A stretch of DNA of 64,000 nucleotides, taken from contig CM057144.1 in NCBI GenBank assembly GCA_029964075.1, positions 8,765,281-8,829,280 of the forward strand, in the 5' to 3' direction. Numbering within the stretch: the first letter of the stretch is position 1; the number at the start of each line of letters is the position of its first letter. Source of the stretch: Patiria pectinifera (Eukaryota > Echinodermata > Asteroidea > Valvatida > Asterinidae). Under the pieces are notes generated by a model. That model worked only from the letters and a program-made list of their open reading frames with translations. It did no database searches and had not been told where the DNA came from. A program made the position numbers and the translations under genes. Shown here piece after piece: positions 2,272 through 61,699 of the stretch.

Positions 2272-2296
2272 AATTGCCGGATCTGATCCGGCAATT
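2272..2296. repeat. 25-bp near-zero-loop palindrome
   Basis: AATTGCCGGATC, one T, then its exact inverse complement. Related half-sites occur nearby at about 2152-2175 and 2310-2335, so it belongs to a small inverted/tandem repeat cluster spanning about 2100-2350. Confidence 0.7.
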
Positions 2297-6229: not shown

Positions 6230-6266
<37 letters not shown>

Positions 6267-28233: not shown

Positions 28234-28479
28234 CTGAATAAACAAAACAAGGAAAGTTTTCACTTCAAGTTAAAGTCTGGTTCACATTTACAAGCGTCAT
28301 TGAACTAGACCCAACAGCATAATGAAAAAAATAGCATTTTTTTGCATTTATTTGTTTGACACAATAGATGACATCAAGAATTTATAAACTTTAACTTCTT
28401 GGATGTGATCAAGTACTTTATTCAATGGCTCTGTGAATTTAATAGTTTTTAACATTATTAATTCTTGGTAAGGGTCATT

Positions 28480-28817
28480 CCATGTCAATTAAACTCGATT
28501 TTTCACCCAACTCTCACAGATTGCAACAATATTTGGTGTGAAGATTGGCCTATATGATAAACCATCCAGAACTGAAATCTTTTGTAATTTGGCTTTTTTT
28601 TTGGAGATACCGTTCAATAGCCTTCTGACTAAATCATATGACCTCTTTAAGCTTTAAATGCTTATCTCCAAAACTATAGCACATACATAGCCAAGTTGTG
28701 CATCACACTTAAGCTCTTTGAATGGAATCTATTTCATAAAATAAAACCAAAATCGTAGCATGAAGGGCAGAGAAAATGCATTAACTAAATTACCGTTGAC
28801 CACGAATTACAAAAATA
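28480..28817 (-). repeat. Old repeat, first half (split by 22.3-kb block)
   Basis: Matches, on the opposite strand, 61879-62200: tttttcacccaac, atatttggtgtga, ctccaaaactatagca, agcatgaag.gcagagaaa and gaattacaaaaata occur in the same order. The match stops at 28817 and resumes at 51118. Confidence 0.85.
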
Positions 28818-30110
28818 ACTAGACTTATGTTTGTGGACAAACACAAGGCTGTTTCAGCATCTTTTTTTTGTGACATGTAAAGTTTCAAGTATAAGTTCCA
28901 TCAAGGAAGGATTTGTAGTTCTGTTTATAATAAATGGTGGCAAATATGTGATTATATTCTTATAGGGCTCTGAATTATGATGTCACATGTCACGTGATGA
29001 AATTCTGAAGACGTCACATCAATTTTCATCTATAATCATCTATAACAACCTGCCACTAGAGGGCGCTGTAATATTTTATGACATCACCGTAAATTTTGTT
29101 GAAACTTAGCCATCAGCATACATCGTTGAAAGCAAGTTCACATCTTTTACCAATTTTAAATTACGAGGCACTTCCAGTTACAACCGGAAGGAAGGGTTAC
29201 GTGATTTTGCACATATATAAAAAAAAAAGACCCTGGATTATTCTATCAATTCCCGCAAAAATCAAGTTTAGATCTCTCACGGTTGGTTTAATATTGATTT
29301 TTAAACATTAAATCTATTAATCTTTAACGTGACGTCACATAACCCATGATGAAGTCACCGTGACGTCACTTCAATTTTCATCCATAACACGTCCCGGTCT
29401 AGGCACACACTGACTTTCAACCAAATCGGACCTGTAGTTCTGGAGATATAGGCCTTCAAAATATGTACATTAAATGTGACGTAACGTGACGTGATGACGT
29501 CATGATGATGTTAATGTTAAGTGTGTGCCGAGTATAAAGGCAATTGGGTAGATGTTAGTGGTAAAAGTGCTGGGAACAAAAAAACATGTACAAATGCCAT
29601 GGGGAAAAATGACTGAAAAAGACAAAAAACTAGAGCTGTATGTCTGTTTGAAATCAGAACACAGGGCTTTTTTGCATTTTACAAATGTTCATGTTTTTTG
29701 TTGGTCCTTTTGCAGTCACTTTTAAAGTGCTTCATGCAGTTAAAGGCTGTGCCAAAATGCTTAGAATAATTCCAAAATATAATTTTATCACATGACGCCA
29801 CATGCCCTGCAATGACCTCATCTTGACAACACTTGTCATTTTTAGATTTGTCAATGCCTATTTTGTCATTGTGGTCTTGGTTTGTATGAAGTTTGAAGTC
29901 AATCTGATGAAAGGAAGTGTTCAATTTTGGAAGCGGAATAAATTGTAAATATTAAGAAAATCATAAAAAAATCTACGGATGACGTCATGGTGACGTCACT
30001 TTGGATTTTGCATACTAGTACCATTATCTAGCTATCCACCAAGTTTCATGACGACCGGACCATGTGTTTTCAAAAATCGCACTTTTCATGACATCATGAT
30101 GACGTCACAC

Positions 30111-30230
30111 ATTTTCAAAATTTTGTGCATATACCTATTACCTAACAAACATAATACAAAAGAATTTAGAATTTTCAAAATTTTGTGCATATACCTATTA
30201 CCTAACAAACATAATACAAAAGAATTTAGA
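30111..30230. repeat. 60-bp exact tandem duplication
   Basis: attttcaaaattttgtgcat through agaatttaga is present twice with no difference that I can see, period exactly 60. It is a recent event inside an old repeat unit. Confidence 0.9.
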
Positions 30231-32689
30231 ATTTTGCATGTTGCTTTCGTGAGATATGGCTTAAAGGTCAAAAAATTCAAAAAAATCATATAAAATCACA
30301 CGATGACGTCATGATGACGTCACCTCAATTTTTACCTATTTAACACATCCCAGTCTACCTACATACCAAGCTTTAACCCAATCAATCTTACAGTTACCTA
30401 AATGTACATGTAGGACTTTAAAATATGCAATTTTAAGATGAGGTCAAGTGACCCATGATGACGTCACTATGACGTCACTCCTTGGGACACATCCTTGCTA
30501 TAGGGACCATGCCTGTGGTAACTTTCAATGATGTGTGACAAAGATTAATGTTAAAAGTGCCGCACAAAAAAATCGTGCACAAAGTCTACAGGATTTTGGG
30601 TCGAACAAGAAGAAGAAGAACTAGAGCTGTATGTCAGTTTGCAAACAGAACACAGGGCTTTTTCGCAATTTCCAATGTGTATGTTTTGTTGGTCCTTTTG
30701 CAGTCACTTTTCAGAGTGCTTAATGCATTTAAATGTTGTTCAAAATGCTTACAATAATTCCTAAAATATAATTTTATCACATGACGTCACATGCCTTGCA
30801 ATGACGTCATCTGTAAAACCCTTCTCAATGCACATTTTGTCATTGTGGTCTTGGTTTGAACAAAGTTTAAAGGCAATCTGATGAAAGTAAGTGTGCAATT
30901 TTGGAAGCAGAATAAAATTATAAATATTTCAAAAATATAAAAAAATCAAACGATGACGTCATCGTGACGTCACTTCAAACTTTGGATACTAGTACCATTA
31001 TCTACCTACCCACCAAGTTTCATGACAGTCTGACCTTCCCTTATATGTGTTTTCAAAAATCGCATTTTTGATGACGTCATGATGACGTCACACATTTTTC
31101 ACAATTTTGTGCAAATACCTATTACCTAACAAACCAATACAAAAAGAATTTTGAATTTTGCATGTTGCATTCGCGAAATATGGCTAAAAGGTCAAAAAAT
31201 TCAAATATTCATATAAAATCTCAGGATGACGTCATCATGATGTCACCTCATTTTTTCCCTATAACACATCCCGGTCTAGCCACATACCAATTTTCAACCA
31301 AATCGGACTTACAGTTCTGTAGATATAGCACTTTAAAATATGCACGTTTGTGATGACGTCACGTGACCCGTGATGACGCAATCATGACGTCACTCTGCGA
31401 GACACATCTTTGCAATAAGGACAATGCATATAATGGTGACTTTGAACAATGTATGACAAAGATGAATGCCAAAAGTGCCGCACAGCAAAATCGTGTACAA
31501 AGTCTATGGGATTTTTGGCCACAAAAAGAAAAAAAACTAGAGATCTATGTCTGTTTGAAAACAGATCATAGGGCTTTTCCGCTTTATTTTATTTTGCATG
31601 ACTTTATGCTTTTTTGCCAATGTGGAGTCATGTAAATTATATTTTTGGTTCAAATATCATAAAAAGTTATATTGAGCTTCGGATTTGGCATTTGATGACG
31701 TCACATGCCCTACTATGACACCATCTTGATTACACTTGTCAATGCAAATTTTTGCCCTGTGGTCTTTGTTTGTACTTAGGTTGAAGTCAATCTGATGAAA
31801 GAAAGTGTTAAATTTTGGAAGCACAATGGTATTGTAAATATGAAAAAAATCATAAAAAAATCAACCGATGACGTCATGGTGACGTCTTTTCGGAATTTGC
31901 ATACTGGTACCATTATCTAGCTATCCACGAGGTTTTATGATGATGGGACCTTCCCTTGTATGTGTTTTTAAAAATTGCATTTTTGATGACGTCATGATGA
32001 CGTCACACATTTTTCAAAACACATTTTTCAAAACGTTGTGCATAATATACCTATTGCCTAACAAACATAATACGAAATTTTTTTGAATTTTGCATGTTGC
32101 GTTCGTGAGATATGGATAAAAGGTCCAAAAATCCAAAAAAAAATCATATAAAATCACACGATGATGTCATGATGACATCAGCTCAAACACATCCCGGTCT
32201 ACTCACATACCAAGTTTCAACCCAATCGGACTTACAGTTCTGTAGATATAGGACTTTACAATATGCACATTTAAAATGACTTCACGTGACCCATGATGAC
32301 GGCACCATTCGTCACTCTTCGGGACACAACTTTGCTATAGGGACTTTGCCTGTGGTAACTTTGAATGATGTATTACAAAGATTAATGCCAAAAGTGGTGG
32401 GCAGAAAAATCGTGTACAAAGTCTATGGGCTTTAGGCGACAAAAAGAAGAAAGAAACTAGAGATCTACCATATGTCTGTCTGCAACAGATCAAAGGGCTT
32501 TTCCGCATTATGATTTTTTTTTTTCAATAATACGTCCCTGACTATGCATGAACATAAAATCTGTCAAAGTTAGTCGAAAATCGGCTCAAACGGTCACTGT
32601 GGACAGGATTTGACCTCGGCAACACGTGCGCTGCGGGCTGACTGACATACGATGTATGTGCGTATGTACAACGTACATGCATGTGCTAT

Positions 32690-34870
32690 ACACATTGTGG
32701 AAATCCTTTGCATTTTTTACTCTCTCTGCTGCAACTTGCGTAAGGGTATTTTTTGCCGACACCGCGTCAACTGTGTGAATAATTGACAAGCTGGAAACTT
32801 GACACTGTTAAGGCAAATGTTTACGCTATCATTTAATGGGCAATTCAAGTTTATATCTGTACGGATTGATTTGTTAGCAATTTTTGAAAAAGGAAAGGTC
32901 TTTTCAACGGAACTTCCGGTCTGATGACGTCATACGCCTAAAACTTCGCACACGTCTTAAGTGGGTCAAGGTCATCATATACACCAATATTTAGGCGATT
33001 CCGACAAACTTTGCCACAGACATCTATTCAAAATACATTTTTGAAAATGTTCAACCTGTCGCTAGAGGGCGCTCGAAGATTGCATGACGTCATCGGTAGA
33101 TGATTTAAAGAATACTATCAGCTAAGAGACTAACACCATTAAAAGCAAGTTCATATCTATACGTGCCTATTGATGGGCCTTTCTAAAGTTCACTTTAAGG
33201 CTCCCAAAGTTTTTTACGTTTATTTGGCAGACAGGAACGGGCCTAGTAAAGTTTCCAATGCTTCAATCCGGCTCATAAGAAAAAACACAAGCTCACACAC
33301 TGTTCAATTCAAGGCCCTCGGATCAGTTCTATTTCCTTCAATAATGCCTTGCCTACTGTGTTCTTACAGTTTATGTGAAGCTCCTGTTATCCTCCAATAG
33401 CTCCAAAACACACAAAAAATATCCATAAGTCGAGAATAAGCTTGTCAAAAGTGTCTAAAAGGTGATACAAAACTGTTACAAAGGTTGAAAAAACTTATGT
33501 CCTCCATGCTCCTATCGATCGCTATCCCATAATGATATCTACAAACGTTTTCTGTCAACAGAGGGCGCTGTAACTGTTTCATGCGGTGAATTTGGCACTA
33601 ACAATATCTATTACCACTTTTAAATAATAAGCCACTTCCGGTTTTGGCCTTTTTCGACCGGAAGCAAGGGTCACGTGATTGCACGCACACTGAATGAAAT
33701 AAAGACCTCAACCTACTCTACCACTTGCCGGCAACAGAATGCTGCGAACACGTACGGTTGATTTCTTATGCATTTTTAAATATTAAAAGTGTCACAATTA
33801 AATTGCCTATAAATAAACACCGGATGACATCATCATGACATCATCATTACACAATGTTGTTTGAATTAGGGTCTTTGCTTGAACAAAGAGTGGTGTAAAT
33901 GAATTACTGGCAACGAGTCGAAAATGCCCTTTGAAAATCGACAATTTTTTGTCAATTTTTGTGTACAAAGTCTATGGGGAAAAAATGTAATATTCAAAAT
34001 TCTATAATATATCGCATGATGTCAGCATGACGTAATGATTCGGCACACATCTGCAGGTGATGTTTTAAGTATGTGCCAGGTTTGAAGGAAATCGGAATTG
34101 TTTTAAGGCCAAAAGTGGCGTGTAGAAAAAACGTGTACAAAGTCTGTGGGATTTTGTGCAAAAAAGAAGTGGAAGAAGAAGCAGAGGAAGAAAGAAAAAC
34201 TAGAACTGTATGTCTGTCGAAACAGAACACAGGCATGCAACTGGGAAGTCACAAAAAAAAGAGGAAATTGAAATTTTTTCAAGACTTGTACAGTGTTTTT
34301 CTATTTTCAATGGCACACTTGGGAAGTACAAAAAGAGGAAATCAGCTGATCCGAGGAAAAGTTGCATGCCTGAGAACAAAGGGCTTTTTCGCTTTCTTTT
34401 ATGTACACAATGAAAGAATGAAAACGTCTTGCAGCACCTCTATCTTATTGTGAGTTGTTCAACAAGGGAAATTAATATTCATGAGTTGACAATGTGGCGC
34501 TTGGTCGGTCCGCGCCCTCACGACCACGTGCGTGTGTGGTGTATGGGAAGCAGGCGATGCCGAATCTGGTCAATGTATACACGCACACATTTGCGGTTTA
34601 TGCTTGCTTTGGATGAGTCCGCATTTTTTACTCTCTCTGCCGCAACTTGCGCAAGGGTATTTTTTGCCGACGCCACGTCAACTGTGTGAATAATTTGACA
34701 AGCTGGAAACTTGGCACTGTTGAGGCATCATTACGTTATCATTTAATGCTTTCATTTACGCTATCATTTAATGGGCAATTCAAGATTATATCTGTACGGA
34801 TTGATTTGTTAGCAATTTTTGAAAAAGGAAAGGTCTTTTCAACGGAACTTCCGGTCTGATGACGTCAAAA
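32690..34870. repeat. Duplicated 250-bp segment within block
   Basis: 32696-32945 and 34616-34870 share gcattttttactctctctgc, caactgtgtgaataat, gggcaattcaag and cttccggtctgatgacgtca at an offset of about 1920 bp. This region corresponds, inverted, to the 2.2-kb units at 38.7-47.7 kb. Confidence 0.75.
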
Positions 34871-35144
34871 ATGCCCTTTGAAAAGCGAATTTCTGTGTAC
34901 AAAATCTATGGGAAAAATTAAATATTCGAAAATCTATAATAAATTAGTCGATGACGTCACCATGACGTCACTCTTCGGGACACATCTCTTCTATAGGGAC
35001 TATGCTTATGCAAACTTTGAATGATGTACGACAAAGATAAATGCCGAAAGTGGCGTTGAGAAAAAACGTGTACAAAGTCTATGGGATTTGCCAGGGAAAA
35101 AAAAAGAAGAAGAAGAAGAAGAAGAAGAAGAAGAAAGAAAAATC

Positions 35145-35245
35145 AGAACAAAGAGAAAGGCTTTTCCGCAACTTTGCGGAAAAACAAAAAAAAAGTCAGA
35201 ACAAAAAGAAAAGCTTTTTCGCAAATTTGCGAAAAAGCCAAAAAG
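35145..35245. repeat. Twin end-type hairpins
   Basis: Two neighbouring hairpins: ggcttttccgcaa with ttgcggaaaaa (about 35159-35185) and gctttttcgcaaa with tttgcgaaaaagc (about 35213-35238). They are followed at 35258 by a CTAG end with hairpin CCTGTTCGATGAACAGG. This is a head-to-tail joint between two repeat units. Confidence 0.7.
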
Positions 35246-35414
35246 ATAAAAAGAAAACTAGAGCTATGCCTGTTCGATGAACAGGACATAGGCTTTTCCG
35301 CATTTTGTTTTTGTTAATATTTCAGAAATCTTTTTGGAATTTCATTAAAAAAATTGTAGTCAACCGATTTTGTCATTATGGCGTCACTTTGGATTTTGCC
35401 TACTAATAACATTA

Positions 35415-37388
35415 GGGCAATTCCACGGTAACGGAAGGACGTTTTCACTCATTAAACAAAATTTCAAATGTGTGTATCACAGACACTGTTCATAGTTACA
35501 GCAAACAAATGTCACAATTGTATTGCTATAATGCTTCTTTCATTTTCCACACTTTTTGGGGGCATGAATGCCTCCCGTTTATGAATTATGAATATTAATG
35601 AGGTCGGTAACGGAAGGACGGTAAAACGGACAAGGGTTTTCCAACTTACTCACGTTTTGCAAAAACTCTGTGAATTTTATGGGGCAATTATATTTTAAAG
35701 GTAGAAAATGGAATCCCTGAAGCTTTATCTATACTATACCGCCTTTCATTTGACTTAAAGTGTTTCAGTTATATAATTACAACGTTTTAAGCAGATTATA
35801 ATTTGGTAACGGAAGGACGGTAACGGAAGGACAAAAGGTTTACTCAATTATAGCATGAAAAAAATGTGAATTTACACTAATTATACAAGTGAAACAAATT
35901 GCTTAAATGTGTAACTGAATGTGAAATCAACAATATGCAGACCTGGCATAAATAATTATACCCAAGAAACTATTGAGATAAAGATAGAAGCCTGCTAATT
36001 AATGATAACAAAAGAAAAACGAAAACAACCCAAAACACATAATTCACGAACACAGGACTACTACAGAAATAGACTTCAAACCCATCACCTCAATCCTTAA
36101 AAGTTTAAATACACAGTATTTGAACTCTTGAGTATATTGGTTACATGTTCACCAACAACTTTTAATAATAATACCGGTAGGTTCAAAGGTTTACCTAAAG
36201 GGTGGGGGGGGGGCGACCAGCCTACATGTACATTTAAGGTCAAAACATCTACCGGTAGAACTGATGGCTTCAGTTAGGTGTTGCTTTTAATTGAACTCTA
36301 AAATCAATGTTTGAAATCAAATTACAATGATTTAGAGTAGTAACAATTAATTTATAAACATCCAAACTGAAGTTGTTAACTTGGGCATAATTTGTCAAAG
36401 ACTGTACCTCACATGTCTTACACATGTAAATTGAATGAAAGTGCCCCAAAGTACCGGTACTTTCTACCATCTCATTTTTGACTTAATTTGCTTCTGGAAT
36501 GGCTTCACAGAATTTGTATCTTTCTCTATTGTCCATGAATGCTGATGGCAGCAACTTTATGATTTGATTTTCTGCAACAACTCCATACATGTACAAGTAC
36601 TGGTACATCGGCATATATGTACATGTACATTGTACATGTTGTACATGCCTGTGCCTTCAAATTGTAATAACACCTTGCCCTGCTTATCCCGCTTTTGTGA
36701 AGGTGGGTCACATGAATGTCCTTTCAGTGCTCATTATACATGCATGTATTTGCAGTGATTTTCATTTTTCAAACATGAGCGCAAATGTCGTAACATTTGA
36801 TAAAAATACGATTTGTCCTTCCGATACCGTCTTTCCGTTACCAATTTGGTAACGGAAGGACGTGATTTAATTAATTGTAATTAAAAAACGAGAAGTACAG
36901 CAGTGTCAGTTATAATGTCATATTGAAGGCCTACATAAAATTGCTTTGCACAATAACTTTCAATGCATTCATACTGCAAGTTTTAAAAATAAATTAAAAA
37001 TATGTATTTTTTCGGTAACGGAAGGACATTTTCGAAGGCTGAAATATTATAAGTCACTGAAGCGAAACAAATTACGCAAAATGTTAAAAACAAGTTTTAG
37101 TCGGTTTTTCAAGACCAATACTTTCTCATGACAGAAACTGATGGCATTAGTACATATTTTTGTGTGTCTATTGGTAGAATACTTTCATATCACTATTAAT
37201 CACATTTTTAGGATTAAAACAGGATTATTACATAATCCTATTTTTTGGTACCGAAATGTATAAAAAATTAAATTCCGACTTCAAATCTTGAAAATATAGA
37301 CTTTTAGCTTTCATTTGATGCCAAATTTGTTTAAGTCACATGTATTTGAATTTTTTGGTGTCATGTCCACTTTGGTGTGGAATTGCCC
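35415..37388. mobile_element. 1974-bp TIR element, GGGCAATTCCAC ends
   Basis: Ends GGGCAATTCCAC and its inverse GTGGAATTGCCC, flanked by atta on both sides (35411-35414, 37389-37392). The host phrase rejoins exactly across it: ggattttgcctactaataac-atta-tctgacttcccgccaagtt is the expected CRE-unit sequence. GGTAACGGAAGGAC recurs at 35432, 35606, 35804, 35819, 36837 (inverted at about 36816) and 37014, and looks like subterminal and internal protein-binding sites. No transposase frame recognised. Confidence 0.8.
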
Positions 37389-37392
37389 ATTA

Positions 37393-38672
37393 TCTGACTT
37401 CCCGCCAAGTTTTATGACGATCCCAGCAGCCCTTGTGTTTGAAAAGAATGTCATCCTTAATTAGCCAAGTTCATGATCAAATTTGTCCAAAAAGACAGAA
37501 ACAGTTAAAGTGAGCAGAAATCATTTTATCCTTACGATACCAATTTGATTCGGCACAATATTGAAGTGAACTTTTAGATTTATGGTTAAATATTTAATTC
37601 TTCGACATTTAACTTTTTTTTCTAAAGCTGTTGAGAAACGCTGTTTTTATGTACTTTCATACATGTAATAGAAGTCTCAATTATTAAAATTGTTTGAAAT
37701 ATACATTGAATTTTAAACAGGAAAAATGTTCGAATTCATGTACATGTAGTTTTTGTTGAAATTGCTGAGTGTTCTTTATCATGTCTCACATTTTACTGTT
37801 CAAATTCTGCAATATCCCATACAACAACCCCAATGGAAAAGGAAAAATACAAGTAATGCTGACAAATATAAGAAAGTGACGCCACATATTTATTGCCTAA
37901 ATTTTGACAGATTTAGGTTTGGGCATGGCAAACTGAACCTCCACAGTTTCGCTTTACAATGTATGTATGACCAGTATTTACTCGGTTTGAAAGTCTCTGC
38001 ATAATTGTCTTTGTAACTTTCTGTCTCAAATTGTGTTCTTGCTCACTTCAATTTTAAAATCAGGTCAAAGAACACAATTAATTCTTTAGAGTCATTTGTA
38101 TAATATTTGATATTTCTCACGCGAATCTTATATCTTGCAACACTCTGAGGCTCCGCTATGGAGCAATATTCGCCACAAAATAATAGGATCCAGAAAATTA
38201 AATAAAAAAACATGACATTCATAACAAATACATCAACAGAGCACGGAACTTGAGCCCGTTAAAGTTATGTACCGCCCTCCTTAGACGAGAATGATGAATG
38301 CTGGAGAAAGCTCGTAACAATGGGTGCATTCGTTCACGTGGTGAGCAAAATTTTTCAGCGGGCTGCGTACAATTTTTCCATTGCCAATTGACGTGCGATT
38401 ACGACCGCATGTTGCATCAACTGCGTGCCCCCGATATTTTGTAGAGGATGTATTTCAAATGATTAAGTGAGGAATACAAATACTATTTAATTCTACAAAT
38501 TGAACACAAGTGTACGTTTGGAAGATCATAAAATTAATCCTAAAATGTGTAATAACTACCGATCTGCAGAAGATTCTCCTGCAAGATGGATTTTGTATCA
38601 AATCAAGTTCCCTCCATAACACGTCACATGCCCCATGATGACGTCATCATAACAATACTTGGCAGTAATCAT
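37393..38672. other. Outer block continued; mostly unrecognised
   Basis: 37393-37450 and 38590-38672 are CRE-family sequence. 37450-38590 between them shows no termini, ORF or repeat that I can name, and probably represents another insertion. Confidence 0.4.
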
Positions 38673-41002
38673 TGGCTGTTTCTTTTGCCGAAACAGCCTT
38701 TGTTTTCGTTAAGATTTTTATTTTTTTTTATTTTTTATTTTTGGCTGTTTCGACACTTTTGCCGAAACAGCCTTTGTTTTCGTTAAGATTTTTATTTCTA
38801 TTTTTTTTTTTTTTTTTCCCAGTCATTTTCCCCATAGCATTTAAACACGTTTTTTTGTTACCGGCACTTTGGGCACTAAAATCAATCCAATTGAATTTAT
38901 ACTAGGCACACACTTAGACCAGCATCTGAAGTTGTGTGTTGAACATTGACATCATCATGACGTCATCGACTACTTTATCATAGATTTTTGAATATTTAAT
39001 TTTTCCCATGGACTTTGTACACAGAAATAAAAAAAAAATTGTCGACTTTCAAAGGGCATTTTGGACTCTTTGCCAGTAATTCATTTGCACCAATCTTTGT
39101 CCAAGCAAAGACCCTAATTCAAACACCATTGTGTTTTATAGGCAATTAAATTGTGACACTTTTAATATTTAAAAATGCATAAGAAATCAACCGTACGCGT
39201 CCGCAGCATTCTGTTACCGGCAAGTGGTAGAGTAGGTTGAGGTCTTTATTTCATTCAGTGTGTGAAATCACGTAACCCTTGCTTCCGGTCGAAAAAGGCG
39301 AAAACCGGAAGTGGCTTATTATTTGAAAATGGTAATAGATATGAACTTGCTTTTAACGGTGTTAGTCTTTTGGCTAAAACTATTCTTCAAATCATCTACC
39401 AATGACGTCATGCAAACTTCGAGCGCCCTCTAGCGACAGGTTGAAAATTAGCAAAAATGTATTTTGAATAGATGTCTGTGGCGAAGTTTGTCGGAATCGC
39501 CTAAATACCGGTATTGGTGTATATAATGACCTTGACCCACTTCAGACGTGTGCGAAGTTTTTTTGGCGAATGACGACAACAGACCGGAAGTTATAATAAA
39601 AAGACCCTTTTTTCATTTGAAAATTCCTGAAAAATCAACCATGGCAGTTTTTATGTTAGTTTTTACTTTAATTGTCAATTTAAGGGTAGGTCTAAAACAT
39701 TTCAAAGCTTCGAGGTAATAAGCGAACTCGTACATGCCCTGCCCACGCTTAAAACTTCAGGCTGACAATACCTCTGCTCTAAAACATGCACAGAACGTCT
39801 ATATACATACACGTACGTTACGCACATGCATGTACATGTACATCGTATGTCAGTCAGCCTGCAGAGCACGTGTTGCCGAGGGCAAATCCTGTCCACATCA
39901 CAGTGACCGTTTTAGCCGATTTTCGGCTAACTTTGACAGATTTTATGTTCATGCATGCGCACAGTCAGGGACGTAAAATAAAAAATTATAATGCCGAAAT
40001 GCCCTATGTTACGTATTTAAAGGTGCAGTTTTTCTGCAGTGGGATTTTCCACAAGTCTTTTCCTATACAACACTGATATCTTACTGAGTAGTTCTGAACT
40101 TCAGCCGAGAATTACTATGAGAAGGAAAGAGAAATCGTATTTTTTTTCGCGCTGTCATTCGATTGAACATATTCCTTAGGGTCAGAATATCAAGTAATAT
40201 TTCATAAAAATGTTTCAGTTCAAAGACAAATTACAAATTTAAAGGTGCAATGTTTCTGCAGTGGTTTTTTTTTTTAGCCCGTTAACTTTGTACATACGTG
40301 TTAGCCCATTGACTTTGTACACGTTTTCAAGCCACCAATTCTATAACTTGGCGATCTGGAATCGTCATCAATGCTACAGCATGGAGGAAGGAATAGAGCC
40401 AAGGAAGACCCTCATACAAAACTTATGCCAAGACTATGACGTCATGATGACATCATCACCTAATTTTTTTTTATTGATTTTTGAAAATTTACGTGCATAT
40501 TATGAAGTCCTATATCTACAGAACTGTAAGTCAGATTGGGTTGAAACTTGGTATGTGGCTAGACCAGGATGTGTTATAGGTAAAGAAAAAATTTAGGTGG
40601 TCGAGACCTGAACATGATTTTTGCGGGAATTGATAGAATTATCGAGTGTCTTCATTTTTAAAATATGTGCAAATAAATCACGTGACCCTTTCTTCTGGTT
40701 GAAACCGGAAGTGCTTTGTAATTTAAAATTGGTGAAAGGCGCGAACTTGCTTTCAACGAGCTCTGGCTAAGTTGTTCTTTACCATAATATTATAGTAATA
40801 GATGAAACTTTATGTGACGTCATCATGACGTCATCACGTGAGATGTGACGTCATAATTCAAAGCCCTATGCGAATGGAATCACATATTATATGCCAACAT
40901 TTATTAAACAGAACTACACATCCTTCGTTGATGGAACACATGTCACATGTCACAAAAAGCTACCGAAACAGCCCTATGTTTGTCCACAAACATATGTCTA
41001 GT
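38673..41002 (+). repeat. 2.2-kb unit 1
   Basis: First unit. Only this one retains the 5' hairpins. Ends at CTAGT (40998-41002). Confidence 0.85.
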
Positions 41003-43225
41003 TTTCTTTTTCAGTCATTTTGCCCATAGCATTTGTACACGTTTTTTTGTTACCGGCACTTTGGGCACTAAAATCAATCCGATTGACTTTATACTTGGCA
41101 CACACTTAGACCAGAACCTGAAGTTGTGTGCCGAACATTGACGTCATGGTGACGTCATCGACGAATTTATTATAGAATTTTGAATATTTAATTTTTCCCA
41201 TAGACTTTGTACACAGAAATAAAAAAAATTGTCGATTTTCAAAGGGCATTTTGGACTCTTTGCCAGTAATTCATTTGCACCAATCTTGGTCCAAGCAAAG
41301 ACCCTAATTCAAACACCATTGTGTAATGATGACGTCGTGATGACGTCATCCGGTGTGTTTTATAGGCAATTAAATTGTGACACTTTTAATATTTAAAAAT
41401 GCATAAGAAATCAACCGTATGCGTCCGCAGCATTCTGTTACCGGCAAATGGTAGAGTAGGTTGAGGTCTTTATTTCATTCAGTGTGCGTGAAATCACGTG
41501 ACCCTTGCTTCCGGTCGAAAAAGGCCAAAACCAGAAGTGGCTTATTATTTGAAAATGGTAATAGATATGAACTTGCTTTTAACGGTGTTAGTCTTTTGGC
41601 TAAAAGTATTCTTCAAATCATCTACCAATGACGTCATGCAAACTTCGAGCGCCCTCTAGCGACAGGTTGAAAATTAGCAAAAATGTATTTTGAATAGATG
41701 TCTGTGGCGAAGTTTGTCGGAATCGCCTAAATATTGGTGTATATGATGACCTTGACCCACTTAAGACGTGTGCGAAGTTTTAGGCGAATGACGACAACAG
41801 ACCGGAAGTTATAATAAAAAGACCCTTTTTCATTTGAAAATTCCTGAAAAATCAACCATGGCAGTTTTTATGTTAGTTTTTACTTTAATTGTCAATTTAA
41901 GGGTAGGTCTAAAACATTTCAAAGCTTCGAAGTAATAAGCGAACTCGTACATGCCCTGCCCACGCTTAAAACTTCAGGCTGACAATACCTCTGCTCTAAA
42001 ACATGCACAGAACGTCTATATACATACACGTACGTTACGCACATGCATGTACATGTACATCGTATGTCAGTCAGCCTGCAGAGCACATGTGGCCGAGGGC
42101 AAATCCTGTCCACATCACAGTGACCGTTTTAGCCGATTTTCGGCTAACTTTGACAGATTTTATGTTCATGCATGCGCACAGTCAGGGACGTATAATAAAA
42201 AATTATAATGCCGAAATGCCCTATGTTACGTATTTAAAGGTGCAGTTTTTCTGCAGTGGGATTTTCCACAAGTCTTTTCCTATACAACACTGATATCTTA
42301 CTGAGTAGTTCTGAACTTCAGCCGAGAATTACTATGAGAAGGAAAGAGAAATCGTATTTTTTTTTCGCGCTGTCATTCGATTGAACAAATTCCTTAGGGT
42401 CAGAATATCAAGTAATATTTCATAAAAATGTTTCAGTTCAAAGACAAATTACAAATTTAAAGGTGCAATGTTTCTGCAGTGGTTTTTTTTTTTAGCCCGT
42501 TCATTAACTTTGTACATACGTGTTAGCCCATTGACTTTGTACACGTTTTCAAGCCACCATTTCTATAACTTGGCGATCTGGAATCGTCATCAATGCTACA
42601 GCATGGAGGAAGGAATAGAGCCAAGGAAGACCCTCATACAAAACTTATGCCAAGACTATGACGTCATGATGACGTCATCACCTAATTTTTTTTATTGATT
42701 TTTGAAAATTTACTTGCATATTATGAAGTCCTATATCTACAGAACTGTAAGTCAGATTGGGTTGAAACTTGGTATGTGGCTAGACCGGGATGTGTTATAG
42801 GTAAAGAAAAAATTTAGGTGGTCGAGACCTGAACATGATTTTTGCGGGAATTGATAGAATTATCGAGTGTCTTCATTTTTAAAATATGTGCAAATAAATC
42901 ACGTGACCCTTTCTTCTGGTTGAAACCGGAAGTGCTTTGTAATTTAAAATTGGTGAAAGGCGCGAACTTGCTTTCAACGAGCTCTGGCTAAGTTGTTCTT
43001 TACCATAATATTATAGTAATAGATGAAACTTTATGTGACGTCATCATGACGTCATCACGTGAGATGTGACGTCATAATTCAAAGCCCTATGCGAATGGAA
43101 TCACATATTATATGCCAACATTTATTATAAACAGAACTACACATCCTTCGTTGATGGAACACATGTCACATGTCACAAAAAGCTACCGAAACAGCCCTAT
43201 GTTTGTCCACAAACATATGTCTAGT
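41003..43225 (+). repeat. 2.2-kb unit 2
   Basis: 2223 bp. Begins TTTCTTTTTCAGTCATTTTG and ends CTAGT. Contains nine TGACGTCA octamers by my count. Very close to unit 3. Confidence 0.9.
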
Positions 43226-45452
43226 TTTCTTTTTCAGTCATTTTGCCCATAGCATTTGTACACGTTTTTTTGTTACCGGCACTTTGGGCACTAAAATCAA
43301 TCCGATTGACTTTATACTTGGCACACACTTAGACCAGAACCTGAAGTTGTGTGCCGAACATTGACGTCATGGTGACGTCATCGACGAATTTATTATAGAA
43401 TTTTGAATATTTAATTTTTCCCATAGACTTTGTACACAGAAATAAAAAAAATTGTCGATTTTCAAAGGGCATTTTGGACTCTTTGCCAGTAATTCATTTG
43501 CACCAATCTTTGTCCAAGCAAAGACCCTAATTCAAACACCATTGTGTAATGATGACGTCGTGATGACGTCATCCGGTGTGTTTTATAGGCAATTAAATTG
43601 TGACACTTTTAATATTTAAAAATGCATAAGAAATCAACCGTATGCGTCCGCAGCATTCTGTTACCGGCAAATGGTAGAGTAGGTTGAGGTCTTTATTTCA
43701 TTCAGTGTGCGTGAAATCACGTGACCCTTGCTTCCGGTCGAAAAAGGCCAAAACCAGAAGTGGCTTATTATTTGAAAATGGTAATAGATATGAACTTGCT
43801 TTTAACGGTGTTAGTCTTTTGGCTAAAAGTATTCTTCAAATCATCTACCAATGACGTCATGCAAACTTCGAGCGCCCTCTAGCGACAGGTTGAAAATTAG
43901 CAAAAATGTATTTTGAATAGATGTCTGTGGCGAAGTTTGTCGGAATCGCCTAAATATTGGTGTATATGATGACCTTGACCCACTTAAGACGTGTGCGAAG
44001 TTTTAGGCGAATGACGACAACAGACTGGAAGTTATAATAAAAAGACCCTTTTTCATTTGAAAATTCCTGAAAAATCAACCATGGCAGTTTTTATGTTAGT
44101 TTTTACTTTAATTGTCAATTTAAGGGTAGGTCTAAAACATTTCAAAGCTTCGAGGTAATAAGCGAACTCGTACATGCCCTGCCCACGCTTAAAACTTCAG
44201 GCTGACAATACCTCTGCTCTAAAACATGCACAGAACGTCTATATACATACACGTACGTTACGCACATGCATGTACATGTACATCGTATGTCAGTCAGCCT
44301 GCAGAGCACATGTGGCCGAGGGCAAATCCTGTCCACATCACAGTGACCGTTTTAGCCGATTTTCGGCTAACTTTGACAGATTTTATGTTCATGCATGCGC
44401 ACAGTCAGGGACGTATAATAAAAAATTATAATGCCGAAATGCCCTATGTTACGTATTTAAAGGTGCAGTTTTTCTGCAGTGGGATTTTCCACAAGTCTTT
44501 TCCTATACAACACTGATATCTTACTGAGTAGTTCCGAACTTCAGCCGAGAATTACTATGAGAAGGAAAGAGAAATCGTATTTTTTTTCGCGCTGTCATTC
44601 GATTGAACATATTCCTTAGGGTCAGAATATCAAGTAATATTTCATAAAAATGTTTCAGTTCAAAGACAAATTACAAATTTAAAGGTGCAATGTTTCTGCA
44701 GTGGTTTTTTTTTTTAGCCCGTTCGTTAACTTTGTACATACGTGTTAGCCCATTGACTTTGTACACGTTTTCAAGCCACCATTTCTATAACTTGGCGATC
44801 TGGAATCGTCATCAATGCTTCAGCATGGAGGAAGGAATAGAGCCAAGGAAGACCCTCATACAAAACTTATGCCAAGACTATGACGTCATGATGACGTCAT
44901 CACCTAATTTTTTTTATTGATTTTTGAAAATTTACGTGCATATTATGAAGTCCTATATCTACAGAACTGTAAGTCTGATTGGGTTGAAACTTGGTATGTG
45001 GCTAGACCAGGATGTGTTATAGGTAAAGAAAAAATTTAGGTGGTCGAGACCTGAACATGATTTTTGCGGGAATTGATAGAATTATCGAGTGTCTTCATTT
45101 TTTAAATATGTGCAAATAAATCACGTGACCCTTTCTTCTGGTTGAAACCGGAAGTGCTTTGTAATTTAAAATTGGTGAAAGGCGCGAACTTCCTTTCAAC
45201 GATGTTTGCTCTGGCTAAGTTGTTCTTTACCATAATATTATAGTAATAGATGAAACTTTATGTGACGTCATCATGACGTCATCACGTGAGATGGGACGTC
45301 ATAATTCAAAGCCCTATGGGAATGGAATCACATATTATATGCCAACATTTATTATAAACAGAACTACACATCCTTCGTTGATGGAACACATGTCACATGT
45401 CACAAAAAGCTACCGAAACAGCCCTATGTTTGTCCACAAACATATGTCTAGT
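43226..45452 (+). repeat. 2.2-kb unit 3
   Basis: 2227 bp, differing from unit 2 by scattered single bases and 1-4-bp indels. Confidence 0.9.
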
Positions 45453-47754
45453 TTTCTTTTTCAGTCATTTTGCCCATAGCATTTGTACACGTTTTTTTGT
45501 TACCGGCACTTTGGGCACTAAAATCAATCCGATTGACTTTATACTTGGCACACACTTAGACCAGCACCTGAAGTTGTGTGCCGAACATTGACGTCATGGT
45601 GACGTCATCGACGAATTTATTATAGAATTTTGAATATTTAATTTTTCCCATAGACTTTGTACACAGAAATAAAAAAAATTGTCGACTTTCAAAGGGCATT
45701 TTGGACTCTTTGCCAGTAATTCATTTGCACCAATCTTTGTCCAAGCAAAGACCCTAATTCAAACACCATTGTGTAATGATGACGTCATGATGACGTCATC
45801 CGGTGTGTTTTATAGGCAATTAAATTGTGACACTTTTAATATTTAAAAATGCATAAGAAATCAACCGTACGCGTCCGCAGCATTCTGTTACCGGCAAGTG
45901 GTAGAGTAGGTTGAGGTCTTTATTTCATTCAGTGCGCGTGAAATCACGTGACCCTTGCTTCCGGTCGAAAAAGGCCAAAACCGGAAGTGGCTTATTATTT
46001 GAAAATGGTAATAGATATGAACTTGCTTTTAACGGTGTTAGTCTTTTGGCTAAAAGTATTCTTCAAATCATCTACCAATGACGTCATGCAAACTTCGAGC
46101 GCCCTCTAGCGACAGGTTGAAAATTAGCAAAAATGTATTTTGAATAGATGTCTGTGGCGAAGTTTGTCGGAATCGCCTAAATATTGGTGTATATGATGAC
46201 CTTGACCCACTTAAGACGTGTGCAAAGTTTTAGGCGAATGACGACAACAGACCGGAAGTTATAATAAAAAGACCCTTTTTCATTTGAAAATTCCTGAAAA
46301 ATCAACCATGGCAGTTTTTATGTTAGTTTTTACTTTAATTGTCAATTTAAGGGTAGGTCTAAAACATTTCAAAGCTTCGAGGTAATAAGCGAACTCGTAC
46401 ATGCCCTGCGCACGCTTAAAACTTCAGGCTGACAATACCTCTGCTCTAAAACATGCACAGAACGTCTATATGTACATGTATACACGTACGTTACGCACAT
46501 ACATCGTATGTCAGTCAGCCTGCAGAGCACGTGTTGCTGAGGTCAAATCCTGTCCACATCATAGTAACCGTTTTAGCCGATTTTGGGCTAACTTTGACAG
46601 ATTTTATGTTCATGCATGCGCACAGTCAGGGACGTATAATAAAAAATTATAATGCCGAAATGCCCTATGTTACGTATTTAAAGGTGCAGTTGAACATATT
46701 CCTAAGGGTCAGAATATCAAGTAATATTTCATAAAAATGTTTCAGTTCAAAGGCAAATTACAAATTAAAATTGCAATTTTTCTGCAGTGGGATTTTTTTT
46801 TAGCCCGTTCGTTAACTTTGTACACGTGTTAGCCCAATGACTTTGTACACGTTTTCAAGCCACCATTTCTATAACTTGGCGATCTGGAATCGTCATCAAT
46901 GTTACAGCCAAGGAAGACCCTCATACAAAACTTATGCCAAGACTATGACGTCATAATGACGTCATCACCTAATTTATGCTAAAGTCAATTTTCTTGATGA
47001 TATTAATCGGATTTAAGGTCAAAGCTATATGACAAATTCAAATGACGCAACGACTGCATGTAAGTTTGACTGCAAAAATTGAAGAAAAAAAAAAACGAAA
47101 AAAGGCTTAGAAATTGACCACAAGCGTGTGGCATGTGAAGAAAATTAAACTTTTTCCAAATATGGTGGGTAATACTAATACTGCCAAAACATCCCCTTCC
47201 AGTGCATGCTTCAGACACATGTGATTGCATTGGTTTTAAATACCGATCTTTGGCATTTCACCTTTTATTGACTTCCGCCAATGCCATCTTAGATTGCTCT
47301 CAGTTTCCTTTATTTTGTAAACACCCCTATACACTTATAATTGAGCACATTAATACGAACTAATCCCACATCGCCGGCTTCGAGGGGTAATGAATAAAAT
47401 AAATCACTACAAGGAAACTCTTTACAATTTATAACTGGGGAGAAACCTTGAATGAAGACCTGCTACAATTGGAGTTTTACGTAACATTAAATGGCCATTA
47501 TTCTGGTCTGTCTGCAGCACAATACTATCCAATTTGGTTGTGGTGATGATGAACCTCAGCCGCCATGTCGTATACATAAATCCAACTGACGTCATGATGA
47601 CGTCTTGACATGACATCTCACTCACATTAAAGCTGCATTTTCTACAGCCTATAAATCTACATTTGCATTTTGTTTTTACTACACCTGCATTACCTATCAG
47701 TCTGTAACATAATGCCGAAACAGCCCTATGTTTGTCCACAAACATATGTCTAGT
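45453..47754 (+). repeat. 2.2-kb unit 4, rearranged
   Basis: As units 2-3 up to about 46970, but with a deletion of about 120 bp at 46690. From about 46975 to 47700 it carries sequence absent from the other units. Ends with the shared hairpin and CTAGT. Confidence 0.85.
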
Positions 47755-48810
47755 TATTTTATTGTGGTTTTAGTCTATACCAAGTTTGAAGGAAATCGGA
47801 TGAATGAAAGTGTTAAATTTTGTAACCAGAATAAAATTGTAAATATATACAAAATCGTTAAAAAAAAAACGACCAAGGACATCATCGTGACGTCATTTCA
47901 GATTTTGTGTACTAGTACAATTGTCTACCCACCCACCAAGTTTCATGACGATCGGACATTCCTTTATATGTGTTTTGAAAAATCTCATTTTTGATGACGT
48001 CATAATGACGTCACACAATTTTCACACATTTGTGGAAATATCTGTTACCTAACAAACATAAATACAAAAAGAATGTTGAATGTTGAATTTAGCATATTGC
48101 ATTCATGAGATATGGCTTAAAGGTAAAAAACTTCAAAAATCGATATCAAATCACACGATGACATCATGATGACATACCGGTAGCCTCAATTTGTATCTAT
48201 TTAACACATCCCAGCCTACTGGTACCTACATACATGATGACGTCATAATCACGTCACCTCAAGTTTTACCTATAACACAGGTAGGTCTCCCTACCTGTAC
48301 ATACCGAGTTCCAACTCAATTGGACTTATACTTCTTTAGATATGGGGTCTTAAAGTTTCCACATTTAAGATAACGTCAGGTGACCCATGATGACGTAATC
48401 ATGACGTCACTCTTCGGGACACAAACTCACTACGGGGTCTTCACATAGTTTAGGTTTCATTAGAATACGACTTTGTTTAAGGTTCAAAATGGCCCGGTTA
48501 ACAAATGTGTACAAAGTCTATAGGATTTGGGGTGGAACAAAAAGACCAAATAAAACTAGAGGTCTGTGTCTGTTTCCAACAGAACATAGAGCTTTTCAGT
48601 ATTATGTTGTTTTTTTAAAGTGAGGTCATGTTTTTCTGTTTCGTGCAAAACTGTGTGCATTTACCTTTTGTCTAACAAACCTAATTCAAAAAGAATTTTG
48701 ATTTTGGAATAATGCGTTTGTGAGATACGACAAAAGTCTTCAAAATTAAAAAAAATATATAATATATACATAATCACAAGATGATGTCATGGTGACGTCA
48801 CCTCAATATT

Positions 48811-49420
48811 TATTTGTAACACATCCCGGCCTACCCCCATACCAAGGTTCAACCCAATCTGACTTACTGTTCATGAGATATAGGGGCTTAAAATATACAA
48901 GTTAATGATGACGTCACATGTCTAATGATGGCGTCATTGTAACAATACTTGGCAGTGCTCATTATTTTATTGTGGATTTAGTCTGTACCAAGTTTGAAAA
49001 CAATCAGATTAATAAGAGTGTTAAATTTTGTAAGCAGAATAAAATTGGCAATACTAAAAAATATTGTTAAAAAATGTACATATACCTATTGCCTAACAAA
49101 CCTAATAGGCCTACCAAAAGAATTTTGAATTTAACATATTGGGTTCGTGAGATATGGCTTCAAGTTCCAATATTTATTTGTAACACATCCCGGCCTACCC
49201 CCATACCAAGTTTCAACCCAATCTGACTTCCTGTTCATGAGATATAGGGGCTTAAAATATACAAGTTAATGATGACGTCGTCATCGTAACAATACTTGGC
49301 AGTGCTCATTATTTTATTGTGGATTTAGTCTGTACCAAGTTTGAAAACAATCAGATTAATAAAAGTGTTACATTTTGTAAGCAGAATAAAATTGGCAATA
49401 TCAAAAAAATCGTTACAAAT
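48811..49420. repeat. 364-bp tandem duplication in CRE block
   Basis: tatttgtaacacatcccggc starts at 48811 and again at 49175. The following 200+ bp, including aatacttggcagtgctcatt, match closely. Confidence 0.8.
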
Positions 49421-51117
49421 CTACCAATGACGTCATCATGACGTCATTCAAGATTTTGTGTACTTGTGTTATTATCTACCCACCCACCAAGTTTCATGAC
49501 GGTCGGACATTCCCTTATATGTGTTTAAAAAAAGCGCATTTTTGATGAAGTCATCATGATGTCACACATTTTTCAAAATTTTGTACATATCCCTGTTGCC
49601 TAACAAACCTAATGCAAAAAGAATTTTGAATTTAACATATTGGGTTCGTGAGATATGGCTTGAAGGTCCAAAACTTCAAAAATCTATATAAAATCACAGG
49701 ATGACTGGACGTCATGATGACGTCACCTCAATTTTTACCTATAACACATCCCGGTCTACCTACATACTGAGTTTCAACCCAATCGAAGTTATCCATGTAG
49801 GTCTTAAAGTTTGCACATTTATGATGATGTCATGTGACACATGATGACGTATTCATCATGTCACTCTTCGGGACATAAACTCACTATGGGGTCTTTACAT
49901 AGGTTAGGTTTCATTAGAATACGTGTAGAATACTTTTAAACAAATACTTTGTCAAATTTTGGTATTAGAAGAAAATGTAAAAAAGTTGATAAAGTAATTT
50001 AAAAAATAGGTTATGACGTCATCATGACGTCACTTCAGATTTTGCATACTATTAACACTAACTACCTACCCACTAAGTTTCAAAACAATCCGACTTACTC
50101 TTATAAGTGTTTTTAAAAATCACATTTTTGATGACGCCACACATTTTTCAAATAAATTGTGCAGATACCTATTACACAACAAACCTAATACAAAAAGAAT
50201 TTGGAATTTAGCATGTTTGAAGCCAATCGGATGAATAAAAGTGTTACATTTTGTAAGCAGAATAAAATTGTTAATATTTTAAAAATCATAAAAAATCTAC
50301 CGATGACGTCATCGTGACGTCATTTCAGATTTTGTGTACTAGTACTATTATCTTCCCACCCACCAAGTTTCATGACAATCGGACATTCCCTTATATGTGT
50401 TTTAAAAAATCACATTTTTGATGACGTCATAATGACGTCACACAATTTTGTGAATATACCTGTTACCTAACAAACATAATACAAAAAGAATTTCGAATTT
50501 AGCATATTGCCTTCGTGAGATATGCTTAAAGGTCCAAAACTTCAAAAATTGATATAAAATCACACGATGACGTCATGATGAAGTCATTTCAATTTTTACC
50601 TATAACACATCCCGGTCTACCTACATACCTAGTTTCAACACAATCCGACTTACAGTTCTTTAGATATATGGTCTTAAAGTTTGCACATGTAAGATGACGT
50701 CACGTGACCCATGATGACATAATCATGACGTCACTCTTCGCGACACAAACTCACTATGGGGTCTTTACATATTTTAGGTTTCATTAGAATAGGAGTTTGT
50801 TTTAGGTCTAAAGTGCCGCGGTTAATGAAAGGGATTTGGGTTAGAACAAAAAGAAAAGAAAAAAAAGAAAGAAAACAATCAGAACAGAAACAATGCTTTT
50901 CCACTTTCAAGCGGAAAAGCAAAAAATCAGAACAAACACAAAGACTTTTCTTAACTTTGCGAAAAAGCCCCCTCCCCCCCCCCCATTTTTTTTCCACGAA
51001 AACAAAGGCTGTTTCGGCGGGTTGCCAAAACAGCCCCCCCCCCTAAAAAAAAAAGAAGAAAAAAAAAATTCTTAAAGAAAACAAAGGCTGTTTGGCAAGT
51101 TTGCCGTAACAGCCAAA

Positions 51118-51300
51118 TATGGTTCAAATTTTTTTTTTCTTTTTCAGATGCTAAGTTTATAATGTAAGCAACAATCTGGTGATGTGTGCTCTTAAAGTTT
51201 TAGTTATGATTTTTTGAAGATACGGTAGCATCTCCAGGGAAAAACCTAGTTTGCATATATTTACACACGTATTATAGACCTGTACCCATACAGCATGTGC
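51118..51300 (-). repeat. Old repeat, second half
   Basis: tatggttcaaatttt, cagatg, ataatgtaagcaacaatct, gctcttaaagtttt and gttatga match the inverse of 61730-61878 in order. It continues exactly where 28817 stops. Confidence 0.85.
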
Positions 51301-51303
51301 ATG

Positions 51304-54300
51304 TTAATAATAATAATAATAACGAAGTTTTATAAAGCGCACATATCCAACAAGGTGCTCAGGGCGCTATTACAATGAAAACGAAACAAAACAAAATCAG
51401 TTTAATTACGAAAAAACGGATCTTTCGACATGAGGTGTGTTTTGAGAGATGTTTTGAATGAGTGAATAGAAGTGGAGGTTTTGATATGAAGAGGTAGTTG
51501 ATTTCAGAGATGTGGTGCTGCAACAGAGAAAGATCTGTCCCCCCAGGTACGATGAGATTTGACTTCTTGAAGAAGATATTTATTTCCAGATCGAAGGTTG
51601 CGAGATGGTTTGTATATATTGAGCATGTCCAGGATGTACGCAGGTGCTTGCCCATTAACTGCTTTGAAGACAATGAGCATCAGTTTGTAGATGATTCTAG
51701 ACGATATTGGGAGCCAGTGAAGATCCAAAAGGACAGGTTTTATATGGGAGTGTTTTGTCTTTAAAGTGACCACACGTGCAGCAGTGTTTTGTAGGCGTTG
51801 AAGGCAGGATAGCTGAACATCTGGAACCCCAAATAAAAGTGAGTTTCCCATATCAAGACGAGATGTAACAAAGGAGTGGACAATCTGTTCTGTGGAAGCG
51901 CGATCAAGATATTTTCGGATCTTTCCTATGTTGCGGATGTGAAATGAAGCAGAGCAAACTGTGTTAGAAATGTGATTCATGAACGACATCGACGAGTCAA
52001 AAATTACACCAAGATTGCGAACATGGCTGACTGGTTTGATGTGAGAGTCCCCAACAGTAATAAAAGGAATAGAGATTTTGGAAAGTTGCTGTGGAGAACC
52101 TATCAACATGAACTCAGTTTTATTGTCATTAATTTTCAAGAAGTTGTCGTTCATCCAATGACGAATTTCACCAACACAAGCCTCCATGCGAGTGATGCAG
52201 GACTGAGCATGTTGTTGTGAGGGATTTAAAGAGACATATGTTGGTGTGTCATCTGCATACGTGTGATATTGAAGGTTGTGTCTCTGAATGATTTCTTGAA
52301 GAGGGAATGTGTATAATGAGAACAACTGCGGGCCGAGAACCGAACCCTGAGGAACGGAAAAAGTTGGACAGGTTCTGAGGCAGCATCCCCGACATGGACG
52401 TGCTGTGGTCTACATTCCAGGTAGGACTGGCACCATTGCAGAGCACGATCCCGCAGACCGATGACGTTACGCAGACGAGCCAGAAGTATGGAGTGGTCCA
52501 CGGTGTCGAATGCTGCACTCAAATCAAGGAAAATAAGTGCAGTAATTTTTTGTTGATCAAGACCAGTAAGAATGTCATTGTGAACACATATTAAGGCAGT
52601 TTCAGTACTATGATTCGGTCTGTAGGCAGATTGAAATGAATCAGTGAGATTGTTGACCCGCATAAATTACCTGTAACCTGGAGGACACTATACGTTCAAT
52701 AGTTTTACCTAAAAAACTCAAATTGGAAATGGGTCTGTAATTGCTGAACACTTCCTTATCCAAGCCACTTTTCTTTAAGAGAGGGCGAATGTAAGAGGTT
52801 TTAAGGCAAGTGGGAAAAACACCGGTATTAAGAGATTTGTTAACAATATGAGTAATTAAAGGAACAAGAACATCACAGCAATCCTTTATAAGAAAGGTGG
52901 GAACTGGGTCAAGCTCACAGGATTTGGATGGAGATTTGGCGAGCAATTTCTTGATTTCTGTCTCACTGGCTGGCTGAAATTCCGTAAGATAAGCATGAGT
53001 AAGTTCATTTTGTGAGGGAATATTATCTTTGCTACATGCTTGAGAGAAATCATTACGTAAAGTGACAATTTTGTTGACAAAAAATTCAGAAAATTGGGTA
53101 GCTAGGGCTATGTCAGAAACTGAAAAAGGCATAACAGGAACTTTACTCTTAATGAGTAATCGATTTACAATACCAAATAATTTTTTCTGATTACCAGAAC
53201 AACCAATAACTTTAGAAGAATAATACGCTTTCTTAGCTCTAACAATACAGTCAGTTACAATACGTCGGTGGACGCAGTAATCTTGTCTGTGAACAGCCAG
53301 TTTTGTAGAGCGCCATTTCTTCTCAAGTTGTCGTCTTTTTTTCCGAGCTGAACGAATTTCCTCGTTGAACCATGGACTATTTGGTGGTATTTTTACAGTC
53401 CGCGTTCGCATAGGGGCATGCTTGTCAAGCAGACCACTGAGAGTTGATTGATATTTTTCAACACAGCAAGGTAGGTCGGTGTTCTGTAAGTCGACGTTCG
53501 AAAGTGCTGAAACCACATCATTGCAAAATTTATCAATGTTAATGTTTTTGAAGTGGCGGGAGGACACAGACATAGTTGGCGAGGGTGGCTTTTGGAGCTG
53601 AAGAGTCGCCATGACAGCAAAATGATCAGAGAGTCCAGGATGAATGCTTAAATCTGATATGAGTGAAGTATCCTCCTGGGTGATAAGCAGGTCCAAACAG
53701 TGACCACTGCGGTGAGTTGGTTCATTAATGTGCTGAATGAACCCGTAGGATGATAATAGAGATTTGAACCGCTTTGAAATACTGTCCAAGGGGTTGTCCA
53801 CATGGATGTTGAAGTCTCCGGTGAGAATAATTTCAGATGGGTGGAGCAAGTATAATTCCAATAAGTTTTCGAAATCTTCGAGGAATGTATTTATGCTGAT
53901 GCGGTGGCCAGAATTATCATTTCCAGACCGATATATATTGACAAGCCAGACTGATTTTGAGTTACAAGTTATTTCTGCATGGATGGACTCAAATGATGAG
54001 AAGTTTCCAACATCAGACTTTATGGATACTGATAAACAAGACTTGTAGAGAAGTCCTACCCCTCCACCTGTTTTGTGCAGTCTGGGAATATGATGAAACG
54101 AGTATCCAGGTGGTGTTATTTCAGCTATAATCCAGTCGTCCCTAGGTTTCAGCCAAGTTTCGGAAATAGCAACTATGTCCAGACTATATTCATGAACAAA
54201 ATCAGCAAAGTCTATACATGTAATTTTATTGCGAATAGACTGTGCGTTTAAAAGCAGAGATGAAGGTTTGAATCAATGTGGGGAGTTAAGTTTTTCAGAT

Positions 54301-61599: not shown

Positions 61600-61699
61600 C
61601 CACGTTCTACAGCCACATGTAGCAAGATGCTGCATAAACATTGGACATAGGGCTGTTAAGGGCAAGTACCTGTATGTACAGTTGAACATGCATATATAT

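Follow-up and report, generated by a model that had tools for sequence, protein, structure and literature searches.

We have analysed a window of 64,000 nucleotides (by which we mean the whole stretch) from the asteroid Patiria pectinifera (assembly GCA_029964075.1, contig CM057144.1, forward-strand positions 8,765,281 to 8,829,280), in which a block of 22,299 bases interrupts an older repeat (Table 1; positions are counted from the first letter of the window). This block is very probably a non-autonomous HINE, i.e., an element of the DINE-1/Helentron-like type, that was inserted into a terminal inverted repeat of an old DNA transposon and was later enlarged by insertions of its own family and by tandem duplication. 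Its structure is most likely that of a nest of HINEs with terminal bases like those of a proto-Helentron. The kind of element is already known and the interesting part is its manner of growth, of which a portion can be followed directly. What can be read in the letters themselves are the termini and both insertions, the outer and the nested one, as well as the tandem units and, here and elsewhere, the junctions of 3′ ends with T-tracts. The genome to which the window belongs comprises 613,548,705 bases in 1,020 contigs.

An Empty Site Defines Both Ends of the Block

The first-pass annotation had proposed that the flanks of the block are two halves of one old repeat, with an uninterrupted copy on the other strand at 61700-62200. 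The left half alone aligned with the reverse complement of 61891-62195 (73.7%, E 1.5e-18); of the right half, short stretches matched that of 61760-61854. Joined together (28300-28817 plus 51118-51500), and also compared base by base, the flanks gave a single alignment to the reverse complement of 61760-62195 (73%, E 1.5e-25), which bears out the proposal; the uninterrupted copy lies at 61683-62195. A 461-base joined-flank query produced 40 scored matches out of 202 candidates, namely the two split halves in the window (query positions 1-258 and 258-461) and 38 others, all of which cross the junction (38/38, a figure that leaves aside the diverged window copy at 61.7 kb). Copies of the host repeat uninterrupted at this point are thus found elsewhere in the genome.

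When seven fetched copies and the one in the window were aligned with the joined flanks, no gap appeared at the junction, in agreement with the claim that the flanks meet without a large gap or overlap; the joined flanks are one base shorter than the copies, in a T-run three bases from the junction. On the minus strand the insertion site reads CATA^TTATTTTTG and the target is A^TT. Base 28818 fits the host better, hence we have moved the left border proposed earlier to 28818/28819, keeping the idea of a single large element inserted in an older transposon copy with both ends set by its empty site. The boundary is ambiguous by a base or two because there are Ts at both ends of the block.

The left half of the host repeat has at least 40 matches in the genome besides the window, many of them as inverted pairs ca. 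2.4-4 kb apart. One fetched pair was 96.5% identical over 624 aligned positions, with GGGTCATTCC at its outer ends. Judged by this sequence pattern, the host is a long (ca. 0.6 kb) terminal inverted repeat of a DNA transposon of ca. 4 kb; two open reading frames (ORFs) near it gave no Pfam match. The term “intron site” used in the first-pass annotation finds no support; the host is a transposon end. A repeat this common could in principle lead an assembler to join two unrelated places in different copies, but the halves fit with no base lost at the junction and both borders are independently defined ends of one transposon family, so that we regard an assembly error as highly improbable.

The Ends of the Block and Similar Ends in the Genome

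On the minus strand the block starts with TTT-GGCTGTT, part of a palindrome whose fold (z -4.2) was equalled by none of 200 shuffles. Near the 3′ end there is a subterminal repeat GCCGAAACAGCC, ca. 28-40 nt before the end, followed by the hairpin TGTTTGTCCACAAACA at ca. 9 nt (both distances measured by eye). The block itself closes with CTAG. In the genome, a query with this 3′ end gave 961 candidates, of which 40 were scored. Among 30 fetched loci (the window's own included) CTAG was kept in 24, every time followed by T, and was altered or truncated in the other six. The exact pattern through CTAGT occurs 131 times in the genome (reversed control, 0) and only once with A, C or G after CTAG, i.e., T follows in 131 of 132.

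The 5′ region of the nested copy described below found 3,039 candidates (40 scored). A boundary at TTGGCTG, or a few T-rich bases away from it, was seen in 10 of 30 fetched loci (L061-L064, L066, L067, L071, L081, L084, and L087, with a variant in L064), upstream of which the sequences are, by eye, apparently unrelated. We examined 20 distinct palindromes on the correct strand, some of them in stacks, and in 19 of these GGC followed two or more Ts; only the one at 51035 in the window differed, being preceded by a G-run. Where there were exactly two Ts, the preceding base was A in 8 of 10 cases and G in 2. A detector of hairpin plus CTAG marked 12 sites in the window, 10 of them followed by T and nine of these also with the subterminal repeat, against means of 1.42, 0.49 and 0.02 in 100 first-order Markov sequences, the subterminal motif having been written only after the sites were known.

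Some copies (L023, L033/L034, and L037/L038) end just before what looks by eye like a 3′ splice site (pyrimidine tract, CAG), as if T-rich tracts preceding exons were targets. At six type-1 3′ ends (L019, L021, L024, L025, L035, and L036) the sequences that follow are alike (TTTGAATTATAACTTT...), so that a single repeat may have been the target on several occasions, or else the flank travels with the element.

Relation to Known Rolling-Circle Elements

In the sections of the published accounts on which we draw, HINEs have palindromic subterminal repeats, a 3′ palindrome and T-rich targets without duplication, and their poly-T preference and clusters are discussed (Thomas et al., 2014; PMC4067079). 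The family described here shows the palindromic subterminal repeat expected 2-4 nt from the 5′ end (2 nt in the fetched copies, TT and then the palindrome), an inverted copy of the repeat near the 3′ end together with a palindrome (the hairpin) in the expected range of 8-35 bp from that end, a T-rich target without duplication (A^TT in both window insertions, with one or two bases ambiguous) and internal tandem repeats. Unlike HINE/DINE-1-like elements as described in that source, it ends in CTAG, has A^TT as its target and forms a far larger block. Nor did we find there any description of stacked palindromes or of copies in each other's T-tract.

The oyster HINEs reported to carry satellite-like arrays (PMC7492417) provide another parallel. 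The Cg_HINE of the Pacific oyster shares with our block the HINE ends around such arrays, the T-rich sites and empty sites recognised through joined flanks, but its arrays are short, with monomers of ca. 140-180 bp, while here the units are of 2.2 kb and each has a 3′ end. The terminal bases are those reported for the proto-Helentron of Phytophthora infestans, with TT and CTAG ends and insertion between A and T without duplication (PMC4067079); that element is coding and ca. 14 kb long, whereas the family studied here is non-coding so far as tested and has palindromic subterminal repeats. Canonical Helitrons share the 3′ hairpin with a CTRR-type end (here CTAG), insertion at A^T without duplication (both window insertions) and tandem arrays, but have a 5′ TC in place of the TT(T)GGCTG and palindrome found here, and the array junctions in the window skip the 5′ palindrome (PMC4067079, PMC5876387).

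Other classes of element were considered. Ten of the 18 ORFs of at least 90 amino acids in the block were scanned, with no Pfam match over the cut-off and one weak match below it, and on these grounds a coding element was provisionally set aside. As a terminal-inverted-repeat transposon the block fares no better, its first and last 700 bases sharing only a 17-base inverted match that is internal, and an RNA- or tRNA-derived unit was discarded with no Rfam and no tRNA hits in the window. The genome does contain 148 rows for the domain Helitron_like_N, and several long frames carry it; by hand count 86 of the rows, some genes accounting for several, lie on a single contig (C7).

A Nested Element and its Tandem Units

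Inside the block lies a plus-strand element with ends of the same kind, closed by CTAG at 47753. Its joined flanks restore, without a gap at TCA^TTATTTTATTG, a repeat that is present seven times in the window (at 48911, 49272, 4160, 30784, 31698, 29795, and 4750, the last a weak match of 69%). It holds four head-to-tail units of ca. 2.2 kb with similar 3′ ends at 41001, 43224, 45451, and 47753. Measured in steps of 150 columns, units 1-3 are 97-100% alike past the first 300 aligned columns, within which unit 1 is 89-96% similar to units 2 and 3. Unit 4 matches units 2 and 3 at 94-100% for ca. 1.65 kb, then becomes unlike them, with the final 39 columns identical. Units 2-4 start right after CTAG, in the T-tract just inside the expected position of the 5′ palindrome. 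Together with the two stacked palindromes (at 38674 and 38743), this arrangement would fit an element within an element followed by unequal exchange.

Another way to produce tandem units is rolling-circle read-through, giving concatemers with no need for nested copies or unequal exchange. Head-to-tail Helitron arrays are known and have been so interpreted (PMC5876387, PMC4067079), their junctions being cited as support for rolling-circle transposition (PMC5876387). However, read-through should join CTAG to the 5′ terminus, while here the palindrome is left out and CTAG meets the T-tract that lies inside it, and unit 4 has a different 3′ part. We consider this origin of the units rather unlikely.

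In our proposal, an element of the HINE kind, lying on the minus strand, would have entered one of the terminal inverted repeats at a site between A and TT, presumably by rolling-circle movement with Rep/helicase supplied in trans. It may have been small on entry, ca. 3 kb provided that the 3′ ends at 31537, 32457, and 35258 belong to later insertions. Further members of the family, among them the 9.1-kb plus-strand element, would then have inserted, some into the T-tract beside the 5′ palindrome, and the 2.2-kb unit of body plus 3′ end would have duplicated in tandem, probably by unequal exchange. The first-pass annotation had suggested that the block entered smaller and grew by amplification; the growth part agrees with the 9.1-kb element inside, with its own empty sites, and with units highly alike over most of their length, and the small size on entry stays a conjecture.

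The opposite possibility is that the block entered near its present size, as a giant composite element that moved as a unit, arrays included. There are type-1 ends at both outer borders, and rolling-circle elements are reported to overrun their termination signals (PMC4067079). Against this, the clean empty site of the plus-strand element inside the block can be read as that of a separate insertion, possibly made before the block moved, and the units are near-identical, so that their duplication looks late. An entry at full size seems to us improbable.

Copies Joined to the T-tract of Other Copies

A 3′ end joined to a T-tract is also found on the minus strand outside the block, at 18265. Among 30 fetched loci, the CTAG end was joined to the T-tract of a CAGTCATTTT body in 10 (L073, L074, L077, L079, L080, L082, L083, L085, L086, and L088), L080 and L088 being the window's own array and L079 and L083 a single one. 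The pattern CTAGT-N{2,16}-CAGTCATTTTSCC occurs exactly 24 times in the genome, on 11 contigs, three times in the window (reversed control, 0). At one locus, L075, the palindrome and T-tract of another copy are separated from a diverged body start by a copy of 1.3 kb. The 283 bases of its joined flanks gave, of 2,107 candidates, 38 scored matches besides its own two halves, and the join was crossed in all 38; the palindrome is included in 29 of them and the other nine start after or at its end.

We propose, tentatively and with somewhat less than even confidence, that relatives insert preferentially into the T-tract just inside the 5′ palindrome. The first copy would then carry a landing site and seed a growing nest, in which palindromes stack on the 5′ side and bodies with 3′ ends on the 3′ side, and unequal exchange would turn the result into a satellite-like array. 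In a limited search, and in the sources as far as we draw on them, we found no account of copies that nest in one another's T-tract.

Several observations count against this reading or against the assignment of the block. Many of the matches to L075 are ca. 26 bases longer than the query, so its join is not base-exact. Another 5′ end of the family was seen in only one (L020) of 24 flanks of type-1 3′ ends (distinct over their first 40 bases, with some near-duplicates); because of this, nesting is not the usual fate of a copy. At L065 a pair of palindromes goes with a single 3′ end, and the 94 bases after it match nothing in the family, which implies that stacks can exist without nesting. Six palindromes (one degenerate, by eye) lie on the minus strand of the block vs. 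four bodies and four 3′ ends (that at 32457 by eye), and on these counts and L065 we dropped a strict parity of palindromes and 3′ ends. As to the termini, the fold of the 3′ hairpin by itself is barely stronger than that of shuffled sequences (z -1.6, with 15 of 200 doing as well), and the genome-wide evidence for the 5′ end comes from the nested copy's query and not from the block's own. Finally, the Rep loci compared (20 and one 4-kb piece, all of them stretches short of the element ends) have no sequence in common with the block, and no autonomous element with these ends was found among them.

Other Features of the Window

A compact copy of ca. 1.1 kb lies outside the block (18265-19363, minus strand). 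It has a type-2 palindrome, and its 3′ end, likewise of type 2, adjoins another T-tract and body start. On the same strand, a further copy of ca. 6 kb (290-6404) may extend from a type-2 palindrome at 6404 to a type-1 3′ end at 290. Inside the block, a stretch of ca. 3 kb (35320-38600) is not repeated within the window, and a single ORF scanned in it had no Pfam match. Just to the right of the block, at 51507-54272 (minus strand), there are remains of a non-LTR-type (lacking long terminal repeats) retrotransposon with reverse transcriptase and endonuclease domains. The stretches 57286-57726 and 60233-60694 form an inverted repeat pair, 89% identical, and a related stretch is found in the flank of one Rep locus (L044).

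Table 1. Positions of the block, its host repeat and its internal parts in the window.
Feature	Position	Strand	Basis
Inserted block, HINE-type element, 22,299 bases	28819..51117	-	Empty site and ends
5′ end of block, TT(T)GGCTGTT palindrome	51080..51117	-	Fold z -4.2
3′ end of block, type 1: subterminal repeat, hairpin TGTTTGTCCACAAACA, CTAG	28819..28861	-	Motif and genome copies
Left half of interrupted host repeat (terminal inverted repeat of old DNA transposon)	28472..28818	.	Flank alignment and genome matches
Right half of interrupted host repeat	51118..51306	.	Flank alignment and genome matches
Host repeat, uninterrupted copy	61683..62195	-	Flank alignment
Nested element, 9,082 bases, inserted at TCA^TTATTTT	38672..47753	+	Own empty sites
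Two stacked 5′ palindromes of nested element	38672..38772	+	Palindromes at 38674 and 38743
2.2-kb unit 1, closed by type-1 3′ end	38808..41001	+	Unit alignment
2.2-kb unit 2	41002..43224	+	Unit alignment
2.2-kb unit 3	43225..45451	+	Unit alignment
Unit 4: ca. 1.6 kb like the others, then different, last 39 aligned bases shared	45452..47753	+	Unit alignment
Further stacked palindromes at 51035, ca. 50968 (degenerate, by eye) and 50921	50894..51035	-	Palindrome search
Internal 3′ end, type 2 (hairpin, CTAG), then T-tract and two palindromes	35258..35304	-	3′-end search
Two stacked type-2 palindromes	35160..35238	-	Palindrome search
Internal 3′ end, type 2, joined to T-tract and body start	32457..32505	-	By eye; missed by detector
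Internal 3′ end, type 2, joined to T-tract and body start	31537..31580	-	3′-end search and detector
Diverged internal repeats of block, left of nested element	29345..32522	.	Self-comparison
Similar internal repeats, right of nested element	47754..50907	.	Self-comparison

Implications

A single locus thus gives the ends and targets of a high-copy rolling-circle family almost to the base, with the empty sites at hand. If our tentative proposal on the T-tract is true, rolling-circle transposons would have a second path towards satellite DNA in addition to read-through, marked by CTAG joined to a T-tract. If copies truly prefer each other's T-tract, such junctions would tell satellite arrays made by nesting from those made by read-through.

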